DNA from: Gammaproteobacteria bacterium
GTDB taxonomy: Bacteria > Pseudomonadota > Gammaproteobacteria > Pseudomonadales > Azotimanducaceae
Length of the DNA: 57,499 nt
Assembly: GCA_028821405.1 (NCBI GenBank)
Contig: JAPPGK010000051.1
Location: 1-57,499 of the forward strand
Direction of reading: 5' to 3'
The position numbers and the translations under genes are program-made. Below are positions 3,063 to 31,851 of the stretch, piece after piece. Numbering within the stretch: the first letter of the stretch is position 1; each line of letters opens with the position of its first letter. The notes under the pieces were generated by a model that saw only the letters and a list, made by a program, of their open reading frames with translations, made no database searches and had not been told where the DNA came from.

Positions 3063-5351
3063 TCAGGAGTTGAGGAACGCGGGGAGGTCGCCGTCGTCGC
3101 CCGCGGGCTCGGTAGCGCCGTTGCCGGCGCCGTCGCTCTCGGTCGCGTCGTCATCGGCTGCGGCGTCCTCGACGGGCTGTTCGGCGCGGTTCTGGACTGC
3201 TGCGGGATCGTCCGCGTCCGAAGCGTCCGCTACGGATTCGCCGTCGCCTCCGGTCGGCTCGGGCGCTTCGGACTCCGTGGCGGGCGGCGTGGCTTCGGAA
3301 GCCGCGACGGGCTTGGACGCGTCGGGATCGGCGACCGGCTCCGGCGCGAACCCCGGCGGGAGCCAGCGTGCTGCGGCGGCGTCGGTCTCGGCGTCCCGGG
3401 CCGGATCGGGGCGGAACGCGGCGGCGGTTGCGGTCACCAGGTCGGTCTTCTTCAGCCCGTTGTGCCGCCCTGTCCAGTCGTCGCCCAGCGTGTCGCCCGC
3501 CGCGCCGAGGATCAGCGCCTTGCTCATGCGGCTCCAGACGAGGTCCGCGTCGAACGGCATGGCGCCGATCGCGGCGAGTTCGGCCGGGAAGTCGATGTCG
3601 AGGTCGCGCACGGCCTCCTCGTGCGCCGCCGACACGTCGCGGTCGTCGCAGAGGTGCGGCACCGTGAGCGTGGCGACGGCATGGGCGAGCACGCTGGCGC
3701 GGTCCTCGTCGGGCAGCGCGCGGTAGGCGCGGAACGCGAGCGCCGCGTCGGGCTCCGCGAGCCAGCCGAGGTCGACGGCGGGCACCGGGTCGAGGTGCTT
3801 CATGGGCTCGCTCGACTTCATCGCGTCGGAGGCGTAGACGCCCTGGTAGTCCTTGCGCACGGCGAGGACCGGGTGCTCGTAGCCCGTGTAGGGGCGGCCG
3901 AAGCCGACGACGCGCGCCAGCACGAAGCCGACGAGGTCGGTGGCGACCGCGGGGCTGCGCGCGAGTACCCGGCGCACGGCGGCCGTGCGCATGACGCGCA
4001 GGTCGTTGCGCAGCGCGTCGGTCCAGCCGCCGTTGCGCTTCGCCGGCGGGGCGTCGTCCGGGACGTGGGGGGCGTCCGGGGAGTCCGGCATGGCCGTGGT
4101 TCCGTCGGCGCCGTTGCCGTCGCCGGTGCGCTCCCCGGCGCGGGCGGCGCGGTAGGCGGGGGCGTCCTCGGCGCGGATGAGGCCGCGGTGGATGTCGAGG
4201 CCGCCGTCGCGGTCGAGCGCGACGACCACGCCGGCGTGGCCGCGGGCGGTCCCGGAGTAGGCGTCGCGGTCGGCGCGGGCGCGCTCGATCTCCGCGTAGC
4301 GGGCCTGCTCGCGGGTCACGATGTCCCACTGCGCCTGCCGTCCGGCGGCGTCGAGGTCGCTGTCGAACGTGTCGAGCCGGGCGTGGGCCTGCTCGATGCG
4401 TTCCTCGGCTTCGGTGAGGGCGGCGGTCTCCTCGTCGGTGAACTCGGCGCGCGTGTCGACGTCCGCGATCAGGTGGTTCTGCTGGTCGAGCCAGGTGAAC
4501 TCGGTCTGCGCGGCGGTCCACTTCCAGTCCTCCGCGTACTTCGCGGCCTCGGCGTTCAGCTTCTGCAGCGCGAGTTCCTCCATGAGGTCCGGGTCGAGAA
4601 TCGAGACGTAGTCGTCCTCGAACAGCGGATCCTCGGTGTGGCCGCCGGCGGCGCGGTAGGCGTCGAGGCCGACGTACAGCGCGATGGGCGCGTCGGAGCG
4701 CGTCCGGCGCGAGCCGATGGCCTGGCGAACCGCGTGGCCGTAGAGCTGGCCGGAATCGGCGAGGCCCTTGAAGATGTTGCGCACGAACTCGGCGTCCGCC
4801 GTGACCGCGAACGCCTCGGCTGTGTCCGCGTTGATGCGGCCCTCGCGGTAGGCGTCGATGATCTCGTCGGGCAGGCCGCCCAGGCGCACGCGCTTCTGCA
4901 CGGTGCGCTCGGCGACGCCGAAGCGGGCGGCGATCTGCTCCGTCGTCGCGCCCTCGCGGGCGAGCCGGCTGAACGCGACCACCTGGTCCGCCGGGTGCAT
5001 GGAGATGCGCACGACGTTCTCGGCGAGCGACGACTCCGCGGCGGCGTCGGGTTCGACGACGAGGCACGGCACCGGGTGGTTCTTCGGGATGTGCTTCTCC
5101 GCCGCGAGGGCGTTCAGCGCGCGCAGCCTCCGGGCGCCCGCCGCGACCCCGAACAGGGTCTTCGTGCGCGGCGCGACGACGAGGTTCTCGAGGAGGCCGT
5201 GGCTCCTGATCGAGGCGACGAGCTCGGCGTCGGCCTGGACCCGCGCGGGATCGTCGGACGCGGAGCGCGCGTTGCGCTCGTCGAAGCGGAGCTTGTTGAG
5301 GGGGATGAGCCGCGTCTCGGGAGAGGCGGCGGTCGGGGTTGCCTTCTGCAT
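3063..5351 (-). CDS. Large ParB/RepB/Spo0J-family DNA-binding protein
   Basis: This 762-residue protein begins with a ParB N-terminal domain (about residues 14-110; GARRLRAL is the conserved arginine box). A helix-turn-helix follows (about 125-165, TTEQIAARFGVAERTVQKRV). The long remainder has a coiled-coil-like charged stretch near 290-370 and an acidic, Pro/Glu/Ala-rich tail. Chromosomal ParB is about 300 residues, so this is the enlarged plasmid/ICE type, which binds DNA and may act in maintenance or gene regulation. No ParA is in the window, so partitioning cannot be asserted. The ATG has AAGGAG about 10 bases upstream. Confidence 0.85.
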   Translation of the reverse strand: MQKATPTAASPETRLIPLNKLRFDERNARSASDDPARVQADAELVASIRSHGLLENLVVAPRTKTLFGVAAGARRLRALNALAAEKHIPKNHPVPCLVVEPDAAAESSLAENVVRISMHPADQVVAFSRLAREGATTEQIAARFGVAERTVQKRVRLGGLPDEIIDAYREGRINADTAEAFAVTADAEFVRNIFKGLADSGQLYGHAVRQAIGSRRTRSDAPIALYVGLDAYRAAGGHTEDPLFEDDYVSILDPDLMEELALQKLNAEAAKYAEDWKWTAAQTEFTWLDQQNHLIADVDTRAEFTDEETAALTEAEERIEQAHARLDTFDSDLDAAGRQAQWDIVTREQARYAEIERARADRDAYSGTARGHAGVVVALDRDGGLDIHRGLIRAEDAPAYRAARAGERTGDGNGADGTTAMPDSPDAPHVPDDAPPAKRNGGWTDALRNDLRVMRTAAVRRVLARSPAVATDLVGFVLARVVGFGRPYTGYEHPVLAVRKDYQGVYASDAMKSSEPMKHLDPVPAVDLGWLAEPDAALAFRAYRALPDEDRASVLAHAVATLTVPHLCDDRDVSAAHEEAVRDLDIDFPAELAAIGAMPFDADLVWSRMSKALILGAAGDTLGDDWTGRHNGLKKTDLVTATAAAFRPDPARDAETDAAAARWLPPGFAPEPVADPDASKPVAASEATPPATESEAPEPTGGDGESVADASDADDPAAVQNRAEQPVEDAAADDDATESDGAGNGATEPAGDDGDLPAFLNS

Positions 5352-7278: not shown

Positions 7279-8172
7279 TCAGGCCGCTGCCGCTTCGGAC
7301 GCGTTGGCGTCGTGCAGCGCGTGCAGGAACTCGACCGCCTGCTGGGCCTGCGTCGCGGCGTCGAACACGGCCCGCGGCTCGTCCTCGAGCAGATCGAGCC
7401 ACGAGGCGATGTAGCTCGCGTGGTCCGCCCGCGGCGTGGAGGCGATGCCGAGGTCCGCGCAAAGGAACGCGCTGCCGAGCTCCGCGACCAGCTCCTCGCG
7501 GGCGTACTCGCGGGTGCCCGGTGCGCCGAATGTGCGGTCGAGCCGGTGCTTCGCGCCCGTCGCGTGGACGTGCTCGTGGCCGAGCGTGCCGAAGAACGCG
7601 TGCGCCGACTCGAAGGTCTCGAACGGCGGCATCTGGATGCGGTCGGGACCGGGGGCGTAGTACGCGCGTTCGCCGCCGTGGCGGACGTCGAGGCTGAGGG
7701 CGTCGAACCACGCCTCGCAGCGCGCGTCGCGTTCGTCGGGGTTGACGTCGGGGGTCTCCGGGACGTACTTCGCGGGCAGTCCGTCGATCTGGTCGGCGTT
7801 GAAGACGGCGTAGACGCGGCGGACGTGGAGCAGCACCTGGCTTTCGTCGCCGAACTCGTCGGTCTCGGTCTTCTTCGCCGTCTTGGCGAACACGATGTGC
7901 GTGGCGCGTTCGCCCTTGCGCACCTGGGCGCCGATCGACTGCGCCTGGCGGTAGGTCATCCAGAACGGCGAGGCGTAGCCCGCCTCGATGGCGGCGCCCC
8001 AGAGGATGAGGACGTTGATGCCCTGGTAGGGCACGGCGTTCTCGCGCAGCGGCTTCGACACCTGCCGGTCGGGGTCGACGGCCCAGGGCTTGTGCCAGGG
8101 CAGCACGCCGTCGGCGAGCTGGGTGCGGATCTGCGATGCGATCTTGTCGTAGAGGTCGTTGATGCGGGCCAT
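7279..8172 (-). CDS. ArdC-like antirestriction protein with zincin metallopeptidase domain
   Basis: This 297-residue protein has the ArdC layout. The N-terminal ssDNA-binding region (MARINDLYDKIASQI..LPWHKPW..PYQGINVLIL, residues 1-130) is followed by a zincin-like peptidase domain. HEHVH at 199-203 fits HExxH, and a downstream REELVAELG helix supplies a likely third ligand. ArdC proteins protect incoming conjugative DNA from host restriction, which fits this neighbourhood. The ATG at 8172 has GAAGGAG upstream. A longer in-frame opening reaches 8451, but that part is Pro/Arg-rich leader sequence. Confidence 0.85.
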   Translation of the reverse strand: MARINDLYDKIASQIRTQLADGVLPWHKPWAVDPDRQVSKPLRENAVPYQGINVLILWGAAIEAGYASPFWMTYRQAQSIGAQVRKGERATHIVFAKTAKKTETDEFGDESQVLLHVRRVYAVFNADQIDGLPAKYVPETPDVNPDERDARCEAWFDALSLDVRHGGERAYYAPGPDRIQMPPFETFESAHAFFGTLGHEHVHATGAKHRLDRTFGAPGTREYAREELVAELGSAFLCADLGIASTPRADHASYIASWLDLLEDEPRAVFDAATQAQQAVEFLHALHDANASEAAAA

Positions 8173-8480
8173 TGCCGGTTCTCCTTCGAATCGAGCGAAC
8201 GGCGCCGCGCCGGGCCGCCGGGGTCCCTCCGACCGGGGCAAGGCCGGACGCCGGACCGCCAGGGACGGCGGCCGCCCGCAGGGCTCCGGCCTTGCCGCGG
8301 GCGGCCCCGGCGGCCGAGGCTGCGGGGTGCCGGTCGGCTCGACAGGAGAACCGACAGGCCGTTTTGGTGGTGGGTTTGCGGACGGAAAACCGGCCGAACG
8401 CGGCCCGCCAAGGCGGGCATGCGGGCGCTCGTGGGGCGCAGGAAGCGTCACGGGGAGGCATCCCGTCTCGGTCGACGGAC
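8173..8480 (-). promoter_or_regulatory. Structured leader of the ArdC-like gene
   Basis: This is the left part of a 505-base divergent gap. It has a perfect 12-bp inverted repeat, GGCAAGGCCGGA (8237-8248) and TCCGGCCTTGCC (8285-8296), around another GC-rich stem, plus GCCCGCC-TT-GGCGGGC near 8405-8420. No gene is supported on either strand. It is the transcribed leader of the ArdC-like gene or an operator region. Confidence 0.4.
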
Positions 8481-10260: not shown

Positions 10261-10437
10261 CTTGCTTTGAAGCCGACGCAGTCGGCGTGGTCGCGGTCGA
10301 ACGCGGCGTGAAGCAAGGTGTCGGCGCAAGCCGGCGTGACAAGCCCGGGCGGAGATCTCCGCCCACTCCCGCAGGGGACCGAAGTCCCCTGCGGAGGCCG
10401 GTGCCTGTTCGCGGGAGTCCTTCCAGGAGGAATCCCA
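10261..10437 (+). ncRNA. radC-motif-like structured 5' leader, copy 2
   Basis: A seven-base-pair outer stem (CTTGCTT 10261-10267 with AAGCAAG 10311-10317) encloses two hairpins (10272-10286 and about 10292-10305). Three more follow: 10320-10335 (GCAA loop), 10347-10364 and 10371-10392. Hairpins one to three are again followed by GTGG or GTGA. The order and spacing match copy 1 while the stem sequences differ, which is what a conserved RNA structure would look like. It leads straight into the RadC-family gene. Confidence 0.6.
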
Positions 10438-10926
10438 ATGAAGGACGAAGACAGGTTCGCCGGCCTGGGCGCGGAGGCGCTCAGCGAGGCGGAAAGGGAA
10501 AGCGTGGTGAAGCTGGCTCTGAGAGTGATGGCGGAGGAAGTGGCCGACGGACCCGTGATGACGGGCGAGACGGCCACTGCGCGCTACCTGCAGCTCAAGG
10601 CAGGCGGACGCGAGCGCGAGGTGTTCGGATGCCTGTTCCTCACGACGAGAAACAGGCTGATATGCGACCAGGAGTTGTTCTACGGCTCCATCGACCGCAC
10701 CACGGTGCACCCGCGGGTGATCTTGCAGAAGGCGCTCAAGCACAACGCCGCGGCGCTGATCTGTTATCACAACCACCCCAGCTCCGTGGCCGATCCGTCG
10801 CCGAGCGACATGGATCTGACCGGTCGCGTGAAGGATCTCCTCGACGAGATCGACGTGCGGCTGCTGGACCACATCGTCGTGTCCCGGACCGAGACCGTCA
10901 GCATGGCCGCCCGCGGCCTGATCTGA
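10438..10926 (+). CDS. radC: RadC-family JAB/MPN domain protein
   Basis: This 162-residue protein is the RadC/DUF2466 JAB domain without the N-terminal helix-hairpin-helix of full RadC. E61, H111 and H113 in CYHNHPSS, S121 and D124 make the JAMM zinc site (E...HxHx10D). Such short RadC proteins are typical cargo of plasmids and integrative elements; their biochemical role is still unsettled. The ATG has AGGAGG seven bases upstream and follows the structured leader. Confidence 0.9.
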   Translation: MKDEDRFAGLGAEALSEAERESVVKLALRVMAEEVADGPVMTGETATARYLQLKAGGREREVFGCLFLTTRNRLICDQELFYGSIDRTTVHPRVILQKALKHNAAALICYHNHPSSVADPSPSDMDLTGRVKDLLDEIDVRLLDHIVVSRTETVSMAARGLI

Positions 10927-11013: not shown

Positions 11014-11142
11014 GCTGTTTGATAAGAGTTTTCTTCTCGCGCTGCCGTCGTGCACGGGCTAGGATCGGTTCGCGTCGACCGCCGCTGGCCGAGGGCTTGG
11101 CGTCGGCGGCACCGGGATGGTTCGCGGAGAGGAAAAGGCGAG

Positions 11143-11605
11143 ATGTTGATCGGCTACGCGCGCGTCTCCACCGAGGGACCTGCAGCGGGAGGTGCTCCTG
11201 GCGGTGGGGTGCGAGCGCTTCTTCGAGGACACCGCGGGCGGCGCCGCCGAGCGCCCCGCCCTGCGCAGCCTGAAGGAGGCAATCGACACGGATTCCAGCA
11301 CGGGCCAGTTCGTGTTCCGCATCTTCGGGGCGCTGGCGGATTTCGAGCGTGTGCTGATCGGGGAACGCACCCGGGCGGGCCTGGCCGCCGCCCGGGCTCG
11401 GGGCCGCATGGGCGGGCGGCACAAACGGCTCGGCGAGCAGCAGCGTCGCCACGCGGTGGAGCTCTACCGGTCGCGCCAGCGCACCGTGAAGGAGGTCTGC
11501 GCGCTGGTGGGGCTCTCCCGCTCGACGCTCTACGCCTGCGTTGAGGAGTTCGCGGATACCGGTGGCCAGGCGGGTAGGAATGCGTCGCCTGCGGTCGGCG
11601 GCTGA
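11143..11605 (+). pseudogene. Decayed serine recombinase (resolvase/invertase)
   Basis: MLIGYARVSTE carries the catalytic Ser of small serine recombinases, followed by a one-base insertion in a G3 run (11175-11177). In the next frame come ...VGCERFFEDTAGG...ERPAL, then a jump to LKEAIDTDSSTGQFVFRIFGALADFER...ERTRAGL and a C-terminal HTH. About 40 residues that normally carry the LDRLGR catalytic arginines are missing. The gene is therefore inactive. It sits between the conjugation-type genes and the Ssp operon and may mark an old transposon end. Confidence 0.8.
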
Positions 11606-11999: not shown

Positions 12000-13139
12000 A
12001 TGACGACTGCGAACATATACCTAGACTACCAGGCCACAACGCCACTGGATGAAAGGGTCCTCGAGGCGATGCTCCCATGGCTGGGACGTCCGGCGAACCC
12101 GCACTCAAGCGAGCATGCGTTCGGTCGGGATGCGGCAGCGGCGGTTGAGTTGGCGCGCGAGCAGGTGGCCGAGGCTGTCAGTGGTGACCCGAAAGGTGTT
12201 GTGTTTACCGGAAGCGCGACCGAAGCGGCCAATGTCGTTATACGTAGTTTCGCCAATGGCGGAGGACGCCTACTGATAAGTGCTATTGAGCATCCGTGTG
12301 TGGCGGAGACGGTGGCGGGGTGCCAGAAGCAATACGGCACGGAAGTAACTGTAGTTCCAGTGGATGAGGAAGGGCTGGTCGATCTGGACGTGCTCCCGGA
12401 ACTGATGGTCGGCGCCGACCTGGTGTCGGTCATGACGGTCAACAATGAGGTTGGCACGATTCAGCCGATTGAAGACATCGGAGCCTTGTGTATGAGCGAG
12501 GGTGTCCGATTGCACACGGACGCGGTGCAGGCAATTGGTCGCGTGAAGGTCGATATGGGGCTCGGCATCGCATTCGCAACGCTCTCTTCGCACAAGGTTT
12601 ACGGTCCGCCCGGCATTGGCGCTATCTGTTCGCAGCCGGAAGAGGTGGCACTGCTGAAGCCGATCATGAGTGGCGGAGGACAAGAAAGGGGCCTTCGACC
12701 CGGAACGCTCCCGACGGCGCTGTGCGTAGGTTTCGGGGTGGCCTGCGCTCTGGCGGTCAGGGAGCAGGAGAAGGACGCGGCGGAGGCTGGGGTGCTGGCA
12801 AACGCGTTCCTGCGCGAATTGGACAACGCCCATGTGTCGTACGTTGTCAACGGGAGCCGCGAAGAGCGTGTGGCGCAAAACCTCAATGTGAGCTTCGACG
12901 GGATCGAGGCGGAGGCGTTGCTGGCGCAGGTGCCGACGGTCGCGCTGTCCACCGGCTCCGCGTGTTCTTCAGGGTCGATCGCGCGATCCGCGGTGCTGAC
13001 GGCGATGGGCCTGTCCGAAGATCGCATTGACAGCGCGGTGAGGATCGGGTTTGGAAGGGGAACAGCGGCGTGCGAGGTCGCCGAGGCGGCGAGAATGGTG
13101 GCGGGGGCGGCGGCGAGGTTGCGGGGGAAGCTAGGGTGA
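12000..13139 (+). CDS. sspA: Cysteine desulfurase SspA
   Basis: This 379-residue PLP enzyme of the NifS/IscS class takes sulfur from cysteine as an enzyme persulfide. The PLP lysine is K199 in SSHKVYGP and the catalytic cysteine is C322 in TGSACSSGS. Other family marks are YLDYQATTP at the N-terminus, NNEVGTIQP (149-157) and the phosphate-binding region near GSATEAAN. In an operon with a DUF4007 gene, an ATPase and a PP-loop protein it is the sulfur donor of DNA phosphorothioation (SspA/DndA role). The ATG at 12000 has GGAAG upstream. The gene looks intact. Confidence 0.85.
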   Translation: MTTANIYLDYQATTPLDERVLEAMLPWLGRPANPHSSEHAFGRDAAAAVELAREQVAEAVSGDPKGVVFTGSATEAANVVIRSFANGGGRLLISAIEHPCVAETVAGCQKQYGTEVTVVPVDEEGLVDLDVLPELMVGADLVSVMTVNNEVGTIQPIEDIGALCMSEGVRLHTDAVQAIGRVKVDMGLGIAFATLSSHKVYGPPGIGAICSQPEEVALLKPIMSGGGQERGLRPGTLPTALCVGFGVACALAVREQEKDAAEAGVLANAFLRELDNAHVSYVVNGSREERVAQNLNVSFDGIEAEALLAQVPTVALSTGSACSSGSIARSAVLTAMGLSEDRIDSAVRIGFGRGTAACEVAEAARMVAGAAARLRGKLG

Positions 13140-14076
13140 CGCCCGCGAAGACAGCGAGGGCCAACAGGACCTGGGAATTGGCGGGCGGCCAAGCGCGGGT
13201 GTTTTCGGGTCACGAGTCGTTCGCATGTAGATACGGGTGGCTGCCGAAGTTGTACGAGGCGGTCGAACAGGATGAGGAGCTCTTCGCGGACGACGAACGG
13301 GCGATTCTTGCGCTTGGCCTGGGCAAGAACATGGTCAGGTCGATTCGGTTCTGGGGGGCACGCATTCGGGCTGCTGGACGTGCAACGCGGAGTCGCAAGG
13401 AATACGGAGCTGGCGCGGCGACTGCTGGACACGGAAGAGGGGTTGGACCCGTACCTCGAGGATGCGGGGTCCCTCTGGAGGTTGCACTGGTTTGTGACCG
13501 CGCACGCCGGTCTGGGCGCGTGGGTAACGGCCTTCCTCGAGTTGCAGGACGCGCAGGTCTCGCGAGATCGGTTGATCGACGTCGTGCGGAATCGGGCCGT
13601 GGTAGCCAGGGGATCGGTGACGCAGAGAACGGCGACGAACCACGTGGACATCCTGTTGCGGACGTACGACTGGGCACGCAGCGACGCGGCGGCAACCGGG
13701 CGAGGACGCGTCGGGGTGCCCGTTCCAGGAACTGCACTTGATGGAAACGTCAGCCGTGAACGGACACACGCAAGTGAGCGTGAAGCGAGGACCGAAGGCT
13801 CAACTGGACGTCGGGGCCTTCGCGTTCGCGCTGCACGACTATTGGCAGGGTACGGCGCCAGGCAGCCGGTCGCTCTCGATCAGAGGCCTCCTCGTGGATC
13901 GTCGCTCGCCGGGAGTAGTGTTTCGGCTCGACGAGGGGTCTCTCCTGGCATGCGTCGAGGAGGTTTGCGGTCTGTCCGGCATGGTGTTGCGTAGCGACGG
14001 AGCCGGCGGCATGGACGTTGTGGGGGACGGTCGGGCGAAGGGACGCCTTGAGGAGGTTGCGTGGCCGAGCAACTGA
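13136..14076 (+). pseudogene. sspB: SspB (DUF4007 nickase), two frameshifts
   Basis: GTG 13136 overlaps the sspA stop as GTGA. Three frames together give one DUF4007 protein of about 312 residues. Segment 1 has FSGHESFACRYGWLPK and LGLGKNMVRSIRFW. Segment 2 has HAFGLLD...DPYLEDAGSLWRLHW...LLRTYDW. Segment 3 has EDASGCPFQELHLM to the stop at 14076. Each break is repaired by removing one base: a G from the G6 run at 13353-13358 and a G from GGG at 13698-13700. SspB is the DNA-nicking component of Ssp systems. As read, the protein would stop early; a sequencing error is the alternative. Confidence 0.75.
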
Positions 14077-17000
14077 TAGCGGACCGGATTGAGATTGGGC
14101 GGCGCTACGTTCGGGCTGTCGACATCCTCCGCGACGAGGAAGACGCGCGGGCGTTGGAAGGCTATGTGCTGACGCCCTCGGTTCGGGACGGGCTTCGCAG
14201 GGTGCTGGCCGGTCTGGGGACGGGGTCGTCGCAGCGTGCGTTCCGGGTGACGGGGCCGTACGGCTGCGGGAAGTCGTCGTTCGGCCTGCTGTTGGCGCGG
14301 TTGTTCCGAGAAGGCACGGTAGGCGGCGAGGCGACGAGTCTCGCGGCCGAGGCACTCGGAGACCAGCAGGTGCCGGCGTATCGCCCGGCGGTCATCGTAG
14401 GTCGGCGAGCAAGCTTGACGGCGGATCTGGCCGTTGCAGCGCGCGACGTGGCGCGCATGGAGTTCGGCGGGGGCGACGAGTTGACGGTATCGGCGGCGCG
14501 GGAGGTGGACCGTGTGTCCGCGACAGGCGAAACCGACTCGAAGGGTATTCTGGACTGTCTCGTACGTTGCTCGGAGAGGCTGTACAAGGAACGTGGCCGG
14601 GGGCTCCTACTGCTGATCGACGAGATGGGACGGTACGTGGAGTTCGCGGTATCCAGCCCGGGCCGAGAGGACGCCTCGGTGTTTCAGCAACTCGCAGAGC
14701 GGGCCGCCGGGTCGCGGCCCGGGGGTCTGGGCGTTGTCGGGCTCCTTCACCACAGGTTCGGCGACTACGTGGCGACGCTCGGCGATTGGGTCGAGGGGGA
14801 GTGGCGGCGATCTTCGGAGCGCTACGAAGAGATCGCGTTTCACGAGACCCACGAACAACTGCTTTACCTCCTGTCGGAAGCACTGGTGACGCGGCGAGCG
14901 CACACGGCAGCGGTCAGGACTGCGGCGAGGTCAGAGTATCGAGAGGCGGGAAAGCGGGGGCTGTTCGCTCTGCCACGGAATGACCTGGCGGAGATCGGCG
15001 AGGCCCTGTACCCGTTTCAGCCGGGGGCGCTTGCGTGCCTTTGGTCTTGTTCCCGTCGCTTCGGACAGAACGAGCGGTCGGTATTCGCGTTCCTTCAGTC
15101 CTCCGAGCCGTTCGGCTACCAGGAGTTTGCGCATAGAACGAGCTACGACGGGCGGAACTGGTACCGGATAGACGACGTCTACGACCATCTGGCGGCGCAA
15201 GGTTCGCTTCGGTTCCAGAGCAGGGACCGCGAGAAGCGCTGGGAAAGGGGGCAGGACGCGCTGTTGGTTTGCGCAGATGTGTCCAGCGATGCACGGCGCG
15301 TACTCAAGGCGGTGACCCTCATCTCCGTATTGGAGCCCGTCCCGGGCTTGTTGGCGGAGGTGGACACGCTCGCGTGGTTGATCGGGTGCGCCGAGGACAG
15401 GGTGAGGAAGGCGCTGGACGAACTCGCGAAGCACGGTGTCATTCACAAGCGGGAGTCGCAGGCGGACTGGAGCCTTTGGTCGCACAGCAGCGTGGATCTC
15501 GACCCGTGGATGGACAAGGCGAGAGCGGCCGCCCCCGAGATGAGGCGGCTCGACGAGGAGTTGTCTCGTGTCACGTCGCTGCGGCCGATGGTGGCGCAGC
15601 GCCACTACCATCGGACCGGGACGCTTCGGAGCTTCGCGATCCGAATCGGGGATGGGGTCACCGAGACACGTGCAGGCAACGACGGGCTGATCGTGGTGCG
15701 TCCGACCTATCCGGACGAAGACCCCGCTGGGGGCAGGCGGGAAGCGGTACGGATGTCGAAGCGGCTGGGGACTCTCGCGCTGGTGCGGTTACAGCCGATT
15801 GCACCGGGACACCTGGCGCTCGCGAGGGACCTGGCGTGCTGGCGGTGGGTCCGGACGGCCTGCGGCGAACTGCGGATCGACGACTTCGCAAGGGCGGAGG
15901 TAGAACGTCGAATGCGGGATCTCGAGAACGAGTTGCGGCGACGACTGCTTCCATTCGGTCAGGCGAATGTGCACGAGGCGGGGGTGGAGTGGCTGCACGA
16001 GGGCGATGCGGTGCGGATCGAGTCACGGGGCGTCCTGCATCGCTTCCTGAGCGACATGTGCGACCGGACGTTCGACAAGTCGCCGATTCTTCGCAACGAG
16101 CTGATCAATCGCGACAAGCTCTCCACGGCGGCCGCGGCAGCACGAATGCGGCTCTTGGCTCTGATGCTGGAACGGGAGGGACAGGAGTTTCTGGGTCTCG
16201 TCGGAGCGCCCCCGGAGCGGACGATCTATCTCTCGATGTTCCACGCCTCCGGCATGCACAGGGCGATGGGGAGCCGCCTGCGGTTCGGGAGTCCGCCGCT
16301 ACAGGATCCGCTTGACTGGGAGCCGGCGTGGCAACGGCTCGACGAGGTGGCCAAGGCCGGCGAGAGCGTCAGGGTGGACGCCGTGATCGCGAGCCTGGCG
16401 GAGGCGCCGGTTGGACTGCGCGCCGGGCCCGCGCTGCTACTGATCGCAGCGTACATGCTGCGGCACCGTGGCACCGTTGCGCTGATGGAGCGAGGGAGCT
16501 TCCAGCCGGAGATCACGCAGGCGCACTTCATGCGGCTCGCCAAGTCGCCGAGGAACTTCGCGCTGCGCCGGATTAGGAGGATCGACAACGAAGACGTTCT
16601 CGGGTCGCTGGTCGACGGACTGTCGATCTGGGCGGATGATCGGCCGGGAACCAGTGTCAAGGAGGTCGTGGAGGCGCTGTACCGGTGGTGGGGACGTCTG
16701 CCCGAGTTCGCTCGGGGGACGAGAACGGTTGGCAAGACGGCGCAGAACGTGCGGGCGGCGCTGAGGAAGGCAAAGGAGCCGATCAACCTGTTGCTCGATC
16801 AGCTGCCGCGGGCGTGCGGGGCCATGGGATCGGACGGCCTGGAAGTCGAACCGTATACGCTCCGGTTGGACATGGCCTTGACCGAGCTCGGCGACGCACT
16901 GCCGACGCTGCGCAGTCAGGCCGCGGCGAGCGTCAGGCACGCGTTTGGCGCGCGTTCGGTGGGGGAACTGCGCGAACAGATGCGTCTGGACTACGAGGAC

Positions 17001-17426
17001 CATTTGCTGGCGCTGGGCAGTTACGAACTGCGGGCGTTCGTTGACCGTGCCTTGAAGGACGATGTGGAGGAAGAAGCTTGGGTAGATGGTGTTGCGGGGC
17101 TGGTCGTGGGAAAGAGGCTGGAAGGCTGGGACGACACGCTGGTCGACCAGTTCGCCTTCGAGATACGGGGCATGGCGCAGCAGCTCGCCCGCCGCCTCGC
17201 ATTGATCCGGGAGACGAATGCACGCGCCGCCCCCGTGACGGCAATCCACTTGACGACGTCGGACGGGAGGGAGCGGTCGCTATTCCTGAGCGAAGGGTCG
17301 GAAGACGATGGAGCGTTGAAGGCCCGGATGCGGAAGGAGCTCGCTCAGGCCGAGCGTCCGGACGCGGTGCTTGTGGACCTGCTTGATGAGATGATGGAGA
17401 AAGGAACGCGGGAGAGCGTGAAGTGA
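14061..17426 (+). CDS. sspC: Large P-loop ATPase SspC
   Basis: This 1,121-residue cytoplasmic ATPase has a Walker A GPYGCGKSS (65-73) and Walker B LLLLIDEMGR (D187, E188). A long helical C-terminal part follows with no motif I recognise. Its place between the DUF4007 gene and the PP-loop gene matches SspC, which is thought to power or couple nicking and sulfur insertion. The GTG start at 14061 has TGAGGAGG upstream and overlaps the end of sspB by 16 bases. The frame is intact over 3.4 kb, unlike its neighbours. Confidence 0.8.
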   Translation: MAEQLIADRIEIGRRYVRAVDILRDEEDARALEGYVLTPSVRDGLRRVLAGLGTGSSQRAFRVTGPYGCGKSSFGLLLARLFREGTVGGEATSLAAEALGDQQVPAYRPAVIVGRRASLTADLAVAARDVARMEFGGGDELTVSAAREVDRVSATGETDSKGILDCLVRCSERLYKERGRGLLLLIDEMGRYVEFAVSSPGREDASVFQQLAERAAGSRPGGLGVVGLLHHRFGDYVATLGDWVEGEWRRSSERYEEIAFHETHEQLLYLLSEALVTRRAHTAAVRTAARSEYREAGKRGLFALPRNDLAEIGEALYPFQPGALACLWSCSRRFGQNERSVFAFLQSSEPFGYQEFAHRTSYDGRNWYRIDDVYDHLAAQGSLRFQSRDREKRWERGQDALLVCADVSSDARRVLKAVTLISVLEPVPGLLAEVDTLAWLIGCAEDRVRKALDELAKHGVIHKRESQADWSLWSHSSVDLDPWMDKARAAAPEMRRLDEELSRVTSLRPMVAQRHYHRTGTLRSFAIRIGDGVTETRAGNDGLIVVRPTYPDEDPAGGRREAVRMSKRLGTLALVRLQPIAPGHLALARDLACWRWVRTACGELRIDDFARAEVERRMRDLENELRRRLLPFGQANVHEAGVEWLHEGDAVRIESRGVLHRFLSDMCDRTFDKSPILRNELINRDKLSTAAAAARMRLLALMLEREGQEFLGLVGAPPERTIYLSMFHASGMHRAMGSRLRFGSPPLQDPLDWEPAWQRLDEVAKAGESVRVDAVIASLAEAPVGLRAGPALLLIAAYMLRHRGTVALMERGSFQPEITQAHFMRLAKSPRNFALRRIRRIDNEDVLGSLVDGLSIWADDRPGTSVKEVVEALYRWWGRLPEFARGTRTVGKTAQNVRAALRKAKEPINLLLDQLPRACGAMGSDGLEVEPYTLRLDMALTELGDALPTLRSQAAASVRHAFGARSVGELREQMRLDYEDHLLALGSYELRAFVDRALKDDVEEEAWVDGVAGLVVGKRLEGWDDTLVDQFAFEIRGMAQQLARRLALIRETNARAAPVTAIHLTTSDGRERSLFLSEGSEDDGALKARMRKELAQAERPDAVLVDLLDEMMEKGTRESVK

Positions 17427-17861
17427 CGCGACATATTCTCAGCCTGTCAGGAGGCAAGGACTCGGCGGCGCTCGCGATTTACATGCGCGACCGCATTACG
17501 GAGATGGAGTACGTCTTCTCCGACACACGGAAGGAACTGCCGGAGACCTACGAGTACCTGGAGCGGATAGAGGACTATTTGGGGACACGCGTGCATCGGC
17601 TAAACGCCGATTTCGGGTTCGACCACTGGTACGACGTGTATGGCGGCATGATCCCGTCGAACCACCGGCGCTGGTGTACCAAGATGCTCAAGCTTCGCCC
17701 GTTCGAGGAGTTCGTCGGGGACGATCCGGTGGTGAACTACGTGGGCCTGCGCGCGGACGAGAATCGCGGGGGCTACATCAGCCACAAGCCGAACATCAAG
17801 GCCGTGTACCCGTTCCAGGAGGACGGACTGAAGTTGGAGGACATCAAGGAGATCCTGCTTA

Positions 17862-17869
17862 GTTCCGGC
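17862..17869. repeat. IS66 target-site duplication, left copy
   Basis: GTTCCGGC directly before the IS66 left end. It pairs with GTTTCGGC at 20329-20336 (7 of 8 identical), the 8-bp duplication typical of IS66. Confidence 0.8.
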
Positions 17870-17947
17870 GTAAGCGGTCATTCTGAGGCGTAGTTCCGCC
17901 GCTGTCGGGCTCCTGTTCCCATTCGCGGTTCGGAACAGGAGATCCAA

Positions 17948-18241
17948 ATGGACAACGTGGCAACCGGGAAGCGCGTGCAGCGCACGGCGGCGCAGTGGCG
18001 TTCGATCATGGCGCGGCAGGAGGCGAGCGGCCTGACCTGCGAGGCGTTCTGCGCGGCGGAGGGCATCGGCCGGAGCGCGTTCTGGCGCTGGCGGCGCCGC
18101 CTGGCCGACGAGGAGGCGGCGAGTGCCGGGAACGGCGGGCCGATGTTCGTCGAGCTGCCCGGCGCCGGCGCCGCGTCGTGGGACGCCGAGCTGGAACTGG
18201 GCGGCGGCGTCGTGCTGCGGGTGCGCCGTCCGCGGTGCTGA
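17948..18241 (+). CDS. tnpA: IS66 TnpA accessory protein
   Basis: This 97-residue protein is the IS66 OrfA/TnpA. Its N-terminal helix-turn-helix contains QWRSIMARQEASGLTCEAFC and GIGRSAFWRWRRRL (residues 17-52). A short tail ends in VVLRVRRP. It helps transposition with TnpB and TnpC. The ATG lies about 80 bases inside the left end; the stop overlaps the tnpB start. Confidence 0.88.
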   Translation: MDNVATGKRVQRTAAQWRSIMARQEASGLTCEAFCAAEGIGRSAFWRWRRRLADEEAASAGNGGPMFVELPGAGAASWDAELELGGGVVLRVRRPRC

Positions 18242-18582
18242 TCCCGGCGGCGGAGCGGCGCATCTGGCTGTGCGTCGCGCCGGCGGACATGCGGCGCTCG
18301 TTCGACGGCCTGGCGGCGCTGGCGCGCAACCACCTGGGCGAGGATCCCGCCGGCGGCGACTGGTTCGTGTTCGTGAACCGGCGCCGGACGATCGTCAAGG
18401 TGCTGTCGTTCGACGGCGGCGGCTACTGGGTGTGGGCCAAGCGCCTGGAGGCGGGACGGTTCGCCGAGCCGCGCGGCCGGGAGCGCAAGCGGGCGCTGGA
18501 CCGGACCGCGCTGCTGGCCCTGGTGGAGGGCGTCGACATGGTCGTGAAGGGCCGCCGGCGGCGCTACCGGAGGGCTGCGTGA
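18235..18582 (+). CDS. tnpB: IS66 TnpB (Orf2) protein
   Basis: This 115-residue protein is the IS66 TnpB family (IS66_Orf2 domain). RIWLCVAPADMRRSFDGLAA is the family hallmark, followed by FVFVNRRR, KVLSFDGGGYWVWAKRLEAG and a basic C-terminus. It is needed with TnpA and TnpC for movement, but its exact activity is not known. The likely start is GTG 18235, overlapping the tnpA stop by 7 bases. Confidence 0.88.
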   Translation: MLIPAAERRIWLCVAPADMRRSFDGLAALARNHLGEDPAGGDWFVFVNRRRTIVKVLSFDGGGYWVWAKRLEAGRFAEPRGRERKRALDRTALLALVEGVDMVVKGRRRRYRRAA

Positions 18583-18634
18583 AGGCTCGCGTTTGGTGTA
18601 GGCTGCGCCGCTTCGAGGACGCCACGGAAGGCCA

Positions 18635-20240
18635 TTGCCGAACGCCGCAGGGATCGCGGAGCTGCGCCGGGAGAACGCGCTTCTCGCCGAACGGCTGGAG
18701 GCGCTGAAGGGCGACTACGCGGCGCTGCAGAGGACGGTCTCGGCGCTCAAGGAGACCGCCGCGTCGCTGAAGGACCAGCTCGACTGGTTCAAGCGCCAGC
18801 TGTTCGGCCGGCGCTCCGAGAAGCGCATCGAGTTCGACCTCGCGGAGCAGGCGAGCCTGTTCGAAGCGCTGGGCGCTGGCGACGCCCGAGGTTCCCGTCG
18901 AGGAGGTCAGCTACCGCCGGCGACGCCGGAAGGCCCGCGGCGACGCGGTGAACGAGTCCGGACTGCGCTTCGACGACACGGTGCCGGTGACCACCGTCGA
19001 GGTGCGCGACCCGGCGGTGGAGTCGATCCCGGCGTCGGAGCGCGTGGTGGTCGGCGAGAAGGTGACGCACCGTCTGGCGCAGCGTCCGGCGAGCTACGAG
19101 GTGCTGCGCTACGTTCGGCCCGTGGTGAAGCGCCGGGACACCGGCGGGCTGCTGGCGGCGCGCGCGCCGGCGAACGTCCTGGAGAGGACCTCGGCGGACG
19201 TCAGCCTGCTGGCGGGGATGCTGGTCGACAAGTTCCGGCACCACCTGCCGCTGCATCGCCAGCACCGGCGCATGGCGGACGCCGGGATCGCGGTGAGCCG
19301 TGCGAGCCTGACCAACTGGGCGGGCCGCGCCGCCGACCTGCTCGGGCCGGTGGCCGCGGCGCAGACGGCGCACGTCCTGGAGAGCCGGGTTCTGGCGATG
19401 GACGAGACGCCGATCAAGGCCGGTGTCCGCGAGCCCGGCAAGATGCGCCAGGGATACTTCTGGCCGATCTACGGGGAGGACGACGAGATCGTGTTCCCGT
19501 TCGCGCCGACGCGCGAGCACCGGCACGTCGAGGCGTTCCTCGGCGACTTCGAGGGGGTGCTGTCGAGCGACGGCTACGAAGCGTACGCGCGCTACGCGGC
19601 GAAGCGCAGCGGCGTGCGCCACGCCCAGTGCTGGGCGCACTGTCGACGCACCTTCGAGCAGGCGCGCGACGGCGAGCCGGAGGCGGCCGGCGCGTCGCTG
19701 GCGCTGATCGGGGCGCTGTACGCGAACGAGAAGGCGATCCGGACGCGGAAGCTGAAGGGCGCCGCGAAGCTGGCGTTCCGGCGCGAGCGGAGCGTTCCCG
19801 CGGCGGCGCGGTTCTTCGCCTGGTGCCGCGGGCAGCTCGCGCGTCCCGACCTGCTGCCGCGCAGTCCGCTGGCGAAGGCGCTGAACTACGCGCTGGAACG
19901 CGAGGCCGGACTGTCGGTGTACTTGTCGGACGCCGACGTCGCGATCGACACCAACGATCTCGAAAGGGCGCTGCGGCCCATCCCGGCGGGCCGGCGCAAC
20001 TGGCTGTTCGCCTGGACGGAGGTCGGCGCCGAGCGCGTCGGCGTGGTCCAGGGCCTGCTCGCGACCTGCACGCTGCAGGGCGTGGATCCCTACGCGTACC
20101 TGGTGGACGTGCTGCAGCGCGTCGGACGCCACCCGGCGTCGCGCGCCGTGGAACTCACGCCGCGGGTGTGGAGGACGATGTTCGCGGACGACCCGCTGCG
20201 CTCCGACCTCGACCGCGCCCGGGATCCGCCCGGCACCTAG
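18635..20240 (+). pseudogene. tnpC: IS66 TnpC transposase, frameshifted
   Basis: A TTG start at 18635 begins the coiled-coil N-terminus (RRENALLAERLEALKGDYAALQ region). The frame breaks near 18882, where this copy lacks 8 bases that are present in the truncated copy at 24633. The catalytic part then continues in another frame to 20240 (VLAMDETPIKAG, EFDLAE upstream, HAQCWAHCRRTFEQ, NDLERALRPIPAGRRNW). The pieces together match an IS66 DDE transposase of about 530 residues. The deletion should abolish activity. Confidence 0.85.
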
Positions 20241-20328
20241 TCCGTCCGAAGTCCGGAACACCCGAGCGGCATCCGGCTCGCGAGCGCCGGTCGCCGAAAA
20301 TCGCCTACGTCCTAGTTTGACCGCTTAC

Positions 20329-20336
20329 GTTTCGGC
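20329..20336. repeat. IS66 target-site duplication, right copy
   Basis: GTTTCGGC just after the right inverted repeat. It differs from the left copy GTTCCGGC by one base, which suggests the insertion is not brand new. Confidence 0.75.
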
Positions 20337-20697
20337 GTCGGATTACCGCCGTACACGCGATGGGGCAGGACACGATCAGGGTGCTTCTTTTGCTTCTATC
20401 AGCAGAAGATCGAGTGGGTGCGGTTGAAGGAAGAGCACCCGGAGCTCTTCGAGCTAGCCAAGGATTACGAAAAGCCCTACGAAGGAAGCGGCAGGACGTT
20501 CACGTGGAGTTCGGACGAGAGCCTGGACGAGCTGGAACGCCCGGAACGCATGGCGGCGATCAAGCGCGAGCACGAAGTGCGGGCGGCCCGAAAGCGGGAA
20601 AGGCGGGAGAACCTGACGCTCGCGGAGGTCTTCGGGGACGAGGGGCCCGAAGAAGACGACGAAGGTTGTCTCATTTGCTCGCTATGAGATGCACTAG

Positions 20698-22978
20698 ATG
20701 AGTTTTTCGTTCGAAGCCAGAACCCTGTTGGAGCTGGGCAAGGAACTCATCAGTACGGATGAGGTTGCGCTGTACGAGCTGATCAAGAACGCCGTCGACG
20801 CTGGGTCCCCAAAGGTTGAGATAGATATTCAATCGATGCTGGCTCACACCGATTATCGGGAGGCGGTTAGACAGATATATGAGTCAGGTAAGGCATTGTC
20901 CGAAGTGACGGCGTTTCTTCGGGGCAAGATCGAACAGGATCCGGATGGGCGGTGCGATAAGTGGCTGGCCGAATTGGATCGAACCACCGAGGCGGACATC
21001 TACGTGGAAAGACTCGACGAGCGCTATGCCCGCCTGAATTCGATACAAATCAAGGATGTCGGGGAGGGTATGTCTTTTGAGGACCTCAACGATGTTTACC
21101 TCCGTATCGGCACGCGACACCGGCGCAGGCAAAATGAGGAAGGGGCGACCAAGCTTAGAGACAAAGGCATAGGGCGGCTGTCGGCGATGCGTTTGGGCGA
21201 CCTCTTGACGGTTGAAACGACGAGGGCAGGCGAGCGGTATTGGAACGTATTGACCGTGGACTGGGGGTTGTTCTCGCACTCGGAAGAGGAAACGAGCGGA
21301 CCACGGCACGACGATAAGGATCGAGAGTCTGAACGCGGACTGGACATGGGTGCGGTTCAACGAACTATTGGACGGCAAGATCGCCCGATTCATGGATCCG
21401 TTCGAGGCGGGGCTGGCGAACCGACTGCTGGTTGCCAGGCACAACGGACGGCGGGCGATGATTCCGTCCGTACCCAAGGCGTTGACGAGGCACGCGCATG
21501 CCAGCTGTCGGGCGACGTTTCGCTTCGACGACGGGGATCCGGTGATCGAGGGCAAGGTGGACTACCGCGAGAAGCGGCGCGCTACGACAATCGAGGCCCG
21601 CGGATCGGAGGTGATGACGGTCAGTCGCACGGCAAGAAAGCGTCGGGCGAAGCGCGGCCACGCGGCGTTCGAGGAAACGCCGATCAGTCGCGATGCGCTG
21701 GTCAAGCTAGGTGGCTTCGAGCTGGAGATTTACTGGTACAACCGGGGGATTGTGGACAGTATTGAGGGGTTGACCGAGAACAAGACGGCGTCGCGTGCCC
21801 AGATCGCGCGGTGGTCGGGTGGCCCGATGCTCTATCGGTACGGGTTCCGAGTACTGCCTTTCGGTGATCCGGACGACGACTGGATCTCGCTCGACAAGAG
21901 AGCATTCGGGGCTTCCGGATTCAAGCTGAATCGGCAGCAGGTGTTCGGGCGGATTCGGATCGAGACGCCGCACCGGTATCTCAGTGAACAGACGAACCGC
22001 GAGGGTCTGGTGCAGTCGCCGGTGTCGGACGCTTTGACGCGGCTGGTGATGTGGGTCGTGCATGTGGAGTTTCGCAACTTCATCAACGAGATCGATAAAC
22101 AGGAGCGGTTGCAGTTCCGCAAGGAGGAGTTGGAGAACAACCAAGTTCGCCGGGCTGAGAGGACCTTGGTGAGGGCCGTGTCCGACCTGCGCGACATGCT
22201 CGACGGCCAGTACGAGGAGGAGATCGAGGAGGTTGTCTCTACGGCGAGGGATCTCCGCGAGGAGGCGCTCGGCGTGCTGAAACGGTTGGACGAGGTGGAG
22301 AAGCAATCCACGCAGGATCGCGAGCAATTCGTCTACCTCGCGGGCGTGGGTCTGATGACCGAGTTTATCTTCCACGAGTTGGAACGTGCCGTAGCGCACA
22401 CGATGAGCGTCATCGCGGATGTTGGGGCGACGCGAACGAGCGTGTCGACGCTGAAGGACCAGTTGCAGACGCTGCACAAGCGAGTCGCCGCATTCGACGA
22501 ATTGACTGGGGAGAAGCGGCAGACGAAGTCGCGTTTCGATCTCTGTGATTTGGTTAGGGAAGTGTTGGGAAATCACGAACGGGAATTCTCTCGACACGGT
22601 ATTGAACTGCTACTCGATCTACCGGAGGACGAATGCACGATACGGGCGGTGCGCGGGATGATGATCCAGATTCTCGAAAACCTGGTCGTAAATGCCGCTT
22701 ACTGGCTAAAGCGCGAGGTGGAATACGACGCCATTGCTGTGTCCTTGGTGTGTGACGGATGGTTGGTCTTGTCTCCCGTTTCCAACTATTATCCCACACT
22801 CGGATTTGGCTCCCGAGACCGCTTGCATGGACCTCAGCAACAAGGAACTGACCGACCTGGGCCAGAAGCTTATCCGCGAAGCCATCGAGCGGCGGCTCGG
22901 AGACCGGAAGATGCAGGTTGGCGACATATGCCGGGGGGCGTTCGACGACTACACCGGAGGCAGGGACCCGCGTCATGA
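20698..22978 (+). pseudogene. Two-domain GHKL ATPase (histidine-kinase/Hsp90-like), frameshifted and truncated; putative Ssp-linked effector
   Basis: It starts 10 bases after sspD, so it is operonic. The N-terminal GHKL fold has ELIKNAVDAGS (N31), DVGEGMS (D120) and KGIGRLSAM (156-164). One extra base near 21290-21296 shifts the frame; the rest continues with ...ADHGTTIRIESLNADW and a long coiled-coil region. A second kinase-like unit (FDLCDLVREVLGNHEREF, then N-box ENLVVNAAYWL) follows. After about 22725 the sequence stops resembling the family and the ATP lid is missing, so the 3' end was replaced. The open frame nominally ends at 22978. It resembles paraMORC/HATPase_c_3 proteins of defence islands. 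Confidence 0.7.
22763..22792 (+). promoter_or_regulatory. Sigma70-like promoter
   Basis: TTGGTC (22763-22768), an 18-base spacer and TATTAT (22787-22792), about 35 bases ahead of the ATG at 22827. It lies just after the point where the GHKL gene breaks off, so it belongs to the incoming sequence. Confidence 0.5.
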
Positions 22979-23102
22979 AATCGTCCGCCATCTGCTGCTC
23001 GTCATGAAGGACGCCGGGCATGTGCAGAATGTGGACAACGACTACTGGTGGAAGCTGACTGCGAAGCGCACGAACGAGCGACTGGCGCGCTCGCTGGGGT
23101 AA
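22827..23102 (+). CDS. Small helical protein of unknown function
   Basis: This 91-residue protein (begins MDLSNKELTDLGQKLIREAI) is rich in helices and charged residues and ends YWWKLTAKRTNERLARSLG. It could be a small winged-helix or DNA-binding protein, but I do not recognise a family. It follows its own promoter at 22763-22792. Codon use looks like real coding sequence. The start is ATG 22827 with only a weak GAG upstream. Confidence 0.55.
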   Translation: MDLSNKELTDLGQKLIREAIERRLGDRKMQVGDICRGAFDDYTGGRDPRHEIVRHLLLVMKDAGHVQNVDNDYWWKLTAKRTNERLARSLG

Positions 23103-24630: not shown

Positions 24631-26301
24631 CCGAACGGCTGGCCGCGGCCGGCCGCGCCCACGAAGCGCTCGCGGCCGACTACGCGGTGCTGCAGAGGAC
24701 GGTCTCGGCGCTCAAGGAGACCGCGGCGTCGCTGAAGGACCAGCTCGACTGGTTCAAGCGCCAGCTGTTCGGCCGGCGCTCCGAGAAGCGCCTGGAGTTC
24801 GAGCTCGCGGAGCAGGCGAGCCTGTTCGAGGCGCTCGGCGCCGGCGACGTGCCGGCACCCGAGGTTCCCACCGAGACGATCAGCTACCGGCGCCGAAGGA
24901 AGCACCGCGGCGATGCGGTGAACGAGTCCGGGCTGCGCTTCGACGCCACGGTTCCGGTGACCACCGTCGAGGTGAAGGACCCCGCGGTGGAGTCGATCCC
25001 GGAGTCGGAGCGCGTGGTGGTCGGCGAGAAGGTCACGCACCGCCTGGCGCAGCGTCCGGCGAGCTACGAGGTGCTGCGCTACGTGCGGCCGGTGGTGAAG
25101 CGCCGGGACACCGGCGGGCTGCTGGCGGCGCGCTCGCCGGCGAACGTCCTGGAGAGGACCTCGGCGGACGTCAGCCTGCTGGCCGGCATGCTGGTCGACA
25201 AGTTCCGCCACCACCTCCCCCTGCACCGCCAGCACCGGCGCATGGCGGACGCCGGGATCGCGGTGAGCCGGGCGAGCCTGACGAACTGGACCGGGCGCGC
25301 GGTCGACTTGCTCGCGCCGGTGGCCGCGGCGCAGACGGCGCACGTCCTGGAGAGCCGCGTGCTGGCGATGGACGAGACGCCGGTCAAGGCGGGTGTCCGC
25401 GAGCCTGGGAAGATGCGCCAAGGCTACTTCTGGCCGATCTACGGAGAGGACGACGAGATCGTGTTCCCGTTCGCGCCGACGCGCGAGCACCGCCACGTCG
25501 AGGCGTTCCTGGGGGAGTTCCGCGGCACGCTGGTGAGCGACGGCTACGAGGCGTACGCGCGCTACGCGGCGAAGCGCGCGGGCGTGCGCCACGCGCAGTG
25601 CTGGAGCCATGCGCGCAGAGGCTTCGGGCAGGCGCGCGACGGCGAGCCGGAGGCGGCCGGCGCGGCGCTGGCGCTGATCGGCGCGCTGTACGCGAACGAG
25701 AAGACGATCCGCGCCCGGAAGCTCAAGGGCGCCGCCAAGCTGGCGCACCGGCGCGAGCGGAGCGTTCCGGCGGCGGAACGGTTCTTCGCCTGGTGCCGCG
25801 GGCAGCTCGCGCGGCCCGACCTGCTGCCGCGCAGTCCGCTGGCGAAGGCGCTGAACTACGCGCTGGAACGCGAGGCCGGGCTGTCGGTGTACCTGGCCGA
25901 CGCCGACGTGGCGATAGACACCAATCACGTCGAAAGGGCGCTGCGGCCGATCCCGGCCGGACGGCGCAACTGGCTGTTCGCCTGGACCGAGCTCGGCGCC
26001 GAGCGCGTCGGCGTGGCTCAGGGCCTGCTCGCGACCTGCACGCTGCAGGGCGTGGATCCGTACACCTACCTCGTCGACGTCCTGCAGCGCGTCGGACGCC
26101 ATCCGGCGTCGCGCGCCGTGGAACTCACGCCGCGGGTGTGGCGCACGCTGTTCGCGGACGACCCGCTGCGCTCCGACCTCGACCGCGGCCGCGACCCGCC
26201 CGGAAGCTAGGCTCCGACAAGCTCGATATCTTTGCAGGCGGGCGCCGTTCGCGACACCGCTCGAGCAGCGAAACGCCCTACGTCCCTGTTTGACCGCTTA
26301 C
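24631..26301 (+). mobile_element. IS66-family element, copy 2, 5'-truncated
   Basis: Similarity to copy 1 begins abruptly at 24631 (CCGAACGGCTGG, equivalent to about 18686) and runs to the right inverted repeat TGACCGCTTAC ending at 26301. The left end, tnpA, tnpB and the first codons of tnpC are missing. The two copies are close relatives but not identical. The right end abuts an IS630 fragment. Confidence 0.88.
24633..26210 (+). pseudogene. tnpC: IS66 TnpC transposase, 5'-truncated
   Basis: The open frame is intact from the junction to the stop at 26210; the first available start is GTG 24687 (507 residues). The catalytic core matches copy 1 (VLAMDETPVKAG, HAQCWSHARRGFGQ, TNHVERALRPIPAGRRNW). 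It keeps the 8 bases lost in copy 1. About 15 N-terminal codons and the IS left end are gone, so the protein may be made but has no intact element to move. Confidence 0.8.
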
Positions 26302-31616: not shown

Positions 31617-31851
31617 TCGACGCCCCATCTGCGCTGCTGCGGTCCGATGTGCGGGGCGACCTGGGGGCCGGGATGTCGCCGCCGCGATTCTGGACCCACG
31701 CGTCGATGTGGGAGAGCCTGAATCGGAACAGGCGCCCGACGCGGTGTGCAGGCAGGCCTTGCGTGTCGACCCAGCGATACACCGTGTCCTTGGACACGTG
31801 CAGGTGAGCGGCTACTTCGGGAATCCCGACCCAGGGTTCGTCGGATGCCAT
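31609..31851 (-). CDS. Excisionase-type helix-turn-helix protein
   Basis: This 80-residue protein has a MerR/HTH_17 DNA-binding domain at residues 6-55: WVGIPEVAAHLHVSKDTVYR then WVDTQGLPAHRVGRLFRF and IDAWVQ. A flexible, charged tail follows. Such proteins often precede the large helicase in defence loci and probably regulate it. It overlaps the helicase start by 8 bases, so the two are translationally coupled. Confidence 0.85.
   Translation of the reverse strand: MASDEPWVGIPEVAAHLHVSKDTVYRWVDTQGLPAHRVGRLFRFRLSHIDAWVQNRGGDIPAPRSPRTSDRSSADGASNG

Follow-up and report, generated by a model that had tools for sequence, protein, structure and literature searches.

A probable Ssp phosphorothioation operon in decay and its candidate kinase-like and receiver-like partner genes

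The closest described counterparts of the locus analysed here are the Ssp systems SspABCD-SspE and SspABCD-SspFGH (PMC8092258, PMC9646914). By the accessible text of these sources, the likeness lies in the genes sspA, sspB, sspC and sspD standing in that order and in profile-level matches. The accessible portion of PMC8092258 describes a survey of 2,678 sspBCD modules, 196 of which came with sspFGH, 199 with sspE, and 36 more with both. By these counts, most sspBCD modules have no known effector beside them as far as the queries of that survey reach. The operon described here differs from both systems in that a kinase-like and a receiver-like gene adjoin sspD, and in its copy in the window (the whole stretch of 57,499 nucleotides that was analysed) three or more genes are broken. 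The window very probably carries a decaying, and probably horizontally spread, Ssp phosphorothioation operon that originally consisted of six genes: sspA-sspB-sspC-sspD, the kinase-like gene and the receiver-like gene.

The sspABCD genes and the IS66 element in sspD

An earlier note made from the sequence alone had recognized sspA, sspB, sspC and sspD in this order, with GTGA overlaps at two junctions, and had proposed profile searches as a check. All four genes matched PADLOC profiles in one locus, and the overlaps are present in the sequence at 13136-13139 (sspA/sspB) and 17423-17426 (sspC/sspD). The sspA gene (12000..13139, plus strand) is an open frame encoding a cysteine desulfurase of 379 aa with the Pfam domain Aminotran_5 (1.5e-59), and it is 74-78% identical to three relatives. 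It is named by its place in the operon because the SspA and DndA profiles of PADLOC score nearly alike on 12000-13136 (5.9e-115, 382.6 bits, and 6.7e-113, 375.8 bits, respectively). The sspC gene (14061..17426, plus strand) is likewise an open frame and encodes a P-loop ATPase of 1121 aa that matched PADLOC SspC at 3.3e-221 over 14061-17423; the Pfam scan assigned no family to this protein. The 5' part of sspD (17423..17869, plus strand) is of the PP-loop or PAPS-reductase type, as it matched PADLOC SspD at 1.4e-67 (17423-17893) and Pfam PAPS_reduct, and is 94-95% identical to the relatives. The 3' part (20337..20687, plus strand) matched PADLOC SspD at 2.5e-21 (20418-20684) and, in a whole-genome search, the SspD profile at 1.3e-40 over 20334-20681. 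It is 85-87% identical to the relatives, and the Pfam scan gave no family for it.

The sspB gene is present as a remnant (13136..14076, plus strand) that runs through three reading frames with breaks near 13,356 and near 13,700. A tblastn comparison with relatives placed its pieces at approximately 13133-13357, 13356-13724 and 13696-14073, in frames 2, 3 and 1, respectively. All three pieces carry the Pfam domain DUF4007 and matched the PADLOC SspB profile PDLC02764 at 1.5e-25, 1.9e-23 and 3.9e-13; for the last of these, PDLC02769 gave the best value (1.3e-14). Together they account for the first 258 of the 276 positions of the SspB profile. In the three relatives sspB lies in one frame. Thus, homologues of all four ssp genes lie together in the window, but the four are not all intact: sspB is spread over three frames and sspD is split by an IS66 element.

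The genome to which the window belongs was searched for further copies; it is 97.56% complete in 122 contigs, so a small part of it is unseen. The earlier note had left room for an intact sspD elsewhere in this genome. None was found: the SspD profile, a loose one that also matched 7 of 14 control genomes, gave two matches, both of them in the window. Likewise, the only three sspB matches and the single SspC match in the genome lie in the window, and neither profile matched any of the 14 controls.

The IS66-family element inside sspD occupies 17870..20328 on the plus strand (2,459 bp). Its ends both read GTAAGCGGTCA in inverted orientation, and its proteins carry the Pfam domains TnpB_IS66 and DDE_Tnp_IS66. 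IS66 elements duplicate 8 bp of their target. Copies of this length lie on either side of the element, at 17862..17869 on the left and 20329..20336 on the right, and agree in seven of eight bases. Domain proteins, terminal inverted repeats and an 8-bp target duplication are therefore all in place. The earlier note had claimed that removal of IS66 and one target copy restores sspD in frame, and this held up: the joined flanks form 265 codons with no inner stop, exactly the length of sspD in the relatives L023, L024 and L025, to which the joined gene is 89.8%, 91.3% and 90.6% identical, respectively. In these relatives sspD is uninterrupted, and the point of the IS66 insertion marks where its 5' and 3' parts join. 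A second, 5'-truncated IS66 copy, 89-91% identical to the first, lies beyond the operon at 24663..26301 on the plus strand. Of 163 candidates, 40 were scored, and among these no copy but the first is full-length. The tnpB gene of the first copy is open. However, its tnpC is frame-broken relative to the second copy and its target duplication differs at one of eight bases, so some time must have passed since the insertion.

A kinase-like and receiver-like pair beside ssp genes

In the three relatives, sspABCD are followed by a histidine-kinase-like gene of dual-GHKL type and then by a receiver-like gene, which makes an operon of six genes in the same order. One of them (L025, contig C76 of genome G006) belongs to the window's own family; L024 and L025 are labelled Gammaproteobacteria and L023 is labelled Acidobacteria. 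Compared piece by piece, their genes are 69-95% identical to the five left in the window. Over its full length sspC is 73-76% identical to that of the relatives (L025 76%, L024 73%, L023 75%), and these SspC values suggest horizontal spread of the operon, provided that the bins are clean. Within the family, the SspC profile matched 20 of 206 genomes, four of the 20 weakly (E above 1e-5), and the kinase was found at E below 1e-40 only in the window's genome and in G006.

The kinase-like protein of the relatives has 781-785 aa with HATPase_c_3 and HATPase_c domains and is followed by a receiver-like protein of 632-643 aa. In the window, the kinase-like gene lies directly downstream of sspD; it is part of the operon and is also broken. 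Its remnant (20698..22729, plus strand) matched HATPase_c_3 in Pfam at 8.2e-16, has a net 50-nt deletion near 21,285 and lost its C-terminal end after 22,729. Aligned with relatives by tblastn, it matches residues 1-197 and 212-694 of about 783. The window's kinase has therefore lost the G boxes, together with the last ~90 codons. The receiver gene was absent from the window in a tblastn search with the relatives. None was found in the genome either by a single-protein search, which had no positive control, or by a 3-row profile, which did match G006. SspE and SspFGH gave no PADLOC match in the four downstream pieces at 20418-23102, to which that scan was confined.

How widely do the two genes accompany ssp genes? 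The kinase was found at E <=1e-20 in 16 plasmid records, and sspD lay within 12.3 kb of it in all 16 (28-12,245 bases away). Because the kinase query was itself taken from an ssp locus and several records are closely related, the 16 do not count as independent cases. Viewed from the other side, the kinase was present in 16 of the 61 plasmid records with SspD at E <=1e-40 (60 of the 61 listed). Twelve of the 16 plasmid neighbourhoods were opened, and all 12 had sspC or sspD near the kinase by tblastn; the receiver was found by sequence in nine of them, and in the remaining three a protein of 637-675 aa directly follows the kinase. The pair lies on the same strand as the ssp genes in some plasmids and on the opposite strand in others. 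All six genes are annotated on pME152 of Methylorubrum extorquens ATCC 55366, for example, an environmental carrier. In Chlorohelix (Chloroflexota) it stands between sspC and sspD (L077:12001-16574). The pair was also found in Alpha- and Betaproteobacteria and in MAGs labelled Gammaproteobacteria and Acidobacteria.

The pair is rare. A 15-row receiver profile (A3) matched one of 369 genomes in a class sample, where the order was sspB, another gene, sspC, sspD, kinase and receiver. The 3-row profile (A1) matched none of the 369, including the genome later matched by A3, and one of 206 family genomes. A3 matched none of 398 genomes in a phylum sample, a weak blank because nothing matched anywhere in that run.

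A phosphorelay kinase is recognized by its His and by its N and G boxes, and a receiver by an acidic pair, an Asp, a Ser/Thr and a Lys. These role names follow common usage and PMC8011034. In 15 kinases, all from ssp loci, residues H576, N678, D716 and G744 are conserved without exception; His576-Glu, both ATP-site motifs and the G boxes are kept across all of them. In 15 receivers, also from ssp loci, D26, D156 and K232 are conserved in every one, and D25 and S203 in 14. The 15 relatives thus carry the motifs expected of a two-component phosphorelay. The receiver-like protein matched no family in Pfam or PADLOC, including no receiver model. Linkage and conserved residues make the pair a candidate for a role in defence, and it may be a little-studied partner of phosphorothioation systems.

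More distant kinases of the window's family (25-30% identical) came from seven loci, L063-L069; eight regions had been fetched, and L070 was left out of the counts for want of a good full-length match. A C5-methyltransferase lies nearby in six of the seven (Pfam DNA_methylase, 8.2e-35 or better). In the same six (L064-L069), the gene after the kinase is receiver-like by eye, and the seventh locus ends at a contig end. Response_reg was sub-threshold in two of these six followers (0.0093 and 0.073) and gave no match in four. HEF_HK and Response_reg_2 were not listed by Pfam for those L064-L069 pair proteins that were scanned. Since the distant homologues sit with C5-methyltransferases, phosphorothioation is not the only setting for pairs of this kind.

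From what is known of these families, an intact SspA would supply sulfur, SspB would nick DNA, SspC would provide the ATPase function and SspD would activate the site so that single-strand phosphorothioates would result. The kinase-like protein, which has a GHKL ATPase at its N terminus and the conserved His in its C-terminal core, would phosphorylate Asp156 of the receiver-like protein. This phosphotransfer would gate either restriction or ssp expression. In the genome analysed here, neither the modification nor the partner pair is expected to work.

Extent and timing of the decay

The earlier note had held that the system was intact until recently and was then cut by IS66. The cut itself stands, as IS66 does split sspD; that the operon was intact until then is only partly supported and is not established, because sspB and the kinase gene are also broken and the receiver was not found. 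"Recently" fits loosely with the open sspA and sspC and with the substitution counts, but sits less well with the age signs in IS66, namely its broken tnpC and its imperfect target duplication. A codon comparison of the window with the three relatives puts 25 nonsynonymous and 119 synonymous single-base changes on the window branch (ratio 0.21); the other three branches carry 22/152, 26/178 and 25/173 (0.14-0.15). This count leaves out gapped or multiply different codons, changes that extend over more than one branch, and a few codons next to the breaks. Along the window branch, sspD has 0 nonsynonymous and 13 synonymous changes. Because sspA and sspC are open and the substitutions are mostly synonymous, with none in sspD that alters an amino acid, the operon seems to have stayed constrained through most of the time since it separated from the others, and to have decayed late. 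Relaxed selection was considered as a clock and rejected: the window ratio is the highest of the four, but not significantly so (Fisher p 0.27 against L025 and 0.28 against L024).

The operon seems to lie in a mobile island, since it has upstream of it an ArdC-type antirestriction gene (7279-8451, minus strand; ArdcN and MPTase-PolyVal domains) and, near that gene, genes for a ParB-like protein (3063-5351) and a RadC-type protein (10318-10926). Lesions seem to be concentrated in this island. A serine-recombinase (Resolvase) gene at 11050-11605 on the plus strand also looks broken; by eye, a typical start lies in another frame, and the Pfam Resolvase domain at 11192-11605 spans only positions 95-144 of 145. 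A large helicase gene (28691-31936, minus strand), with Helicase_C, SNF2-rel_dom and ResIII matches, is possibly another defence gene at the island edge. The last 28,899 bases of the window, beyond the downstream end of the island, hold 14 ORFs of at least 200 aa, the longest of 1837 aa, which sum to 25,569 bases with overlaps counted twice. Twelve of the 14 have Pfam matches, and no split was noticed among them, as judged from the window ORFs alone.

The sspB frame breaks could be sequencing errors in a draft assembly. Assembly error as the sole cause of the frame breaks is disfavoured by the unsplit downstream ORFs, the 50-nt net deletion and the gene loss, the last two of which are not base-calling errors. 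An unlikely account builds on such errors: in it, the Ssp operon worked until IS66, and nothing else, cut it recently. The anatomy of the element and the joined flanks agree with it, as do the open sspA and sspC and the purely synonymous changes in sspD. It would stand if both sspB breaks were errors, because loss of the kinase and receiver by itself would not stop modification; set against it are those two breaks, the deletion in the kinase gene and the loss of that gene's 3' end, and the failure to find a receiver gene. That programmed frameshifting expresses sspB and keeps the operon partly active is very improbable. The three pieces do cover most of the SspB profile, but each of the three relatives has sspB in one frame, and in the window sspD and the kinase gene are broken too. 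Equally improbable is that the window holds a fragment of type 4 BREX and not an Ssp operon, even though SspB, SspC and SspD belong to families also found in type 4 BREX by the accessible text of PMC12839542 and sspC matched BrxC at 2.7e-93. The SspC profile scores 735 bits on that gene against 311 bits for BrxC, none of 38 window proteins or pieces has a PglZ match in Pfam, and between sspA and the receiver gene the relatives have no gene beyond the six. A decaying Ssp operon with several lesions thus remains the preferred reading of the window.

Comparison with known systems

One tentative reading, possible but held with less than even confidence, is that SspABCD together with the dual-GHKL kinase and the divergent receiver may form a distinct, horizontally spread defence variant. 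In this variant a phosphorelay, acting instead of SspE or SspFGH or alongside them, would couple the sulfur mark to the response, and the window would hold a degenerating copy in which parts of both the partner pair and the modification genes are gone. An FtsK-type gene, a feature of SspFGH, is also near in 7 of 11 annotated plasmid neighbourhoods, the twelfth being without annotation. In the open literature, as distinct from subscription papers and preprints, no broader account was found of Ssp with a GHKL kinase, histidine kinase, paraMORC or HEF_HK. The one paper that mentions both phosphorothioate and paraMORC concerns Shedu, by its accessible text. In the window, an Ssp operon of this six-gene type is being lost through a number of lesions, and its receiver gene is no longer found.

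Kinases beside ssp genes have already been noticed in Acinetobacter (PMC7464106 and PMC12421847, the latter on A. baumannii), and the accessible parts of the two sources, taken together, treat it as a possible regulator of SspE or a possible new variant. The arrangement is alike in A. baumannii CP040048.1, where a kinase and a 637-aa follower stand beside DUF4007, ATPase and PP-loop genes. These accounts, in their accessible text, are limited to that genus, whereas the pair described here spans further classes and phyla.

The pairs of HEF_HK and Response_reg_2 associated with paraMORC (PMC8011034) resemble the present pair, by the accessible part of that source, in that adjacent kinase-like genes (mostly with HATPase_c_3) and receiver-like genes lie near DNA modification genes; the conserved His and Asp are also common to both. 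The kinases and receivers of L023-L025, and those scanned of L073, L077 and L082, have no HEF_HK (PF19191) or Response_reg_2 (PF19192) match in Pfam at E up to 1. The main text of PMC8011034 contains none of the terms phosphorothio, PAPS, DUF4007, sulfur, Dnd and cysteine desulfurase. The setting it describes, in its accessible part, resembles that of L064-L069, and the ssp-linked pair differs from it in having phosphorothioation as its partner. Staying near ssp genes across phyla despite changes in orientation and position, this pair is a candidate to fill part of the effector gap.
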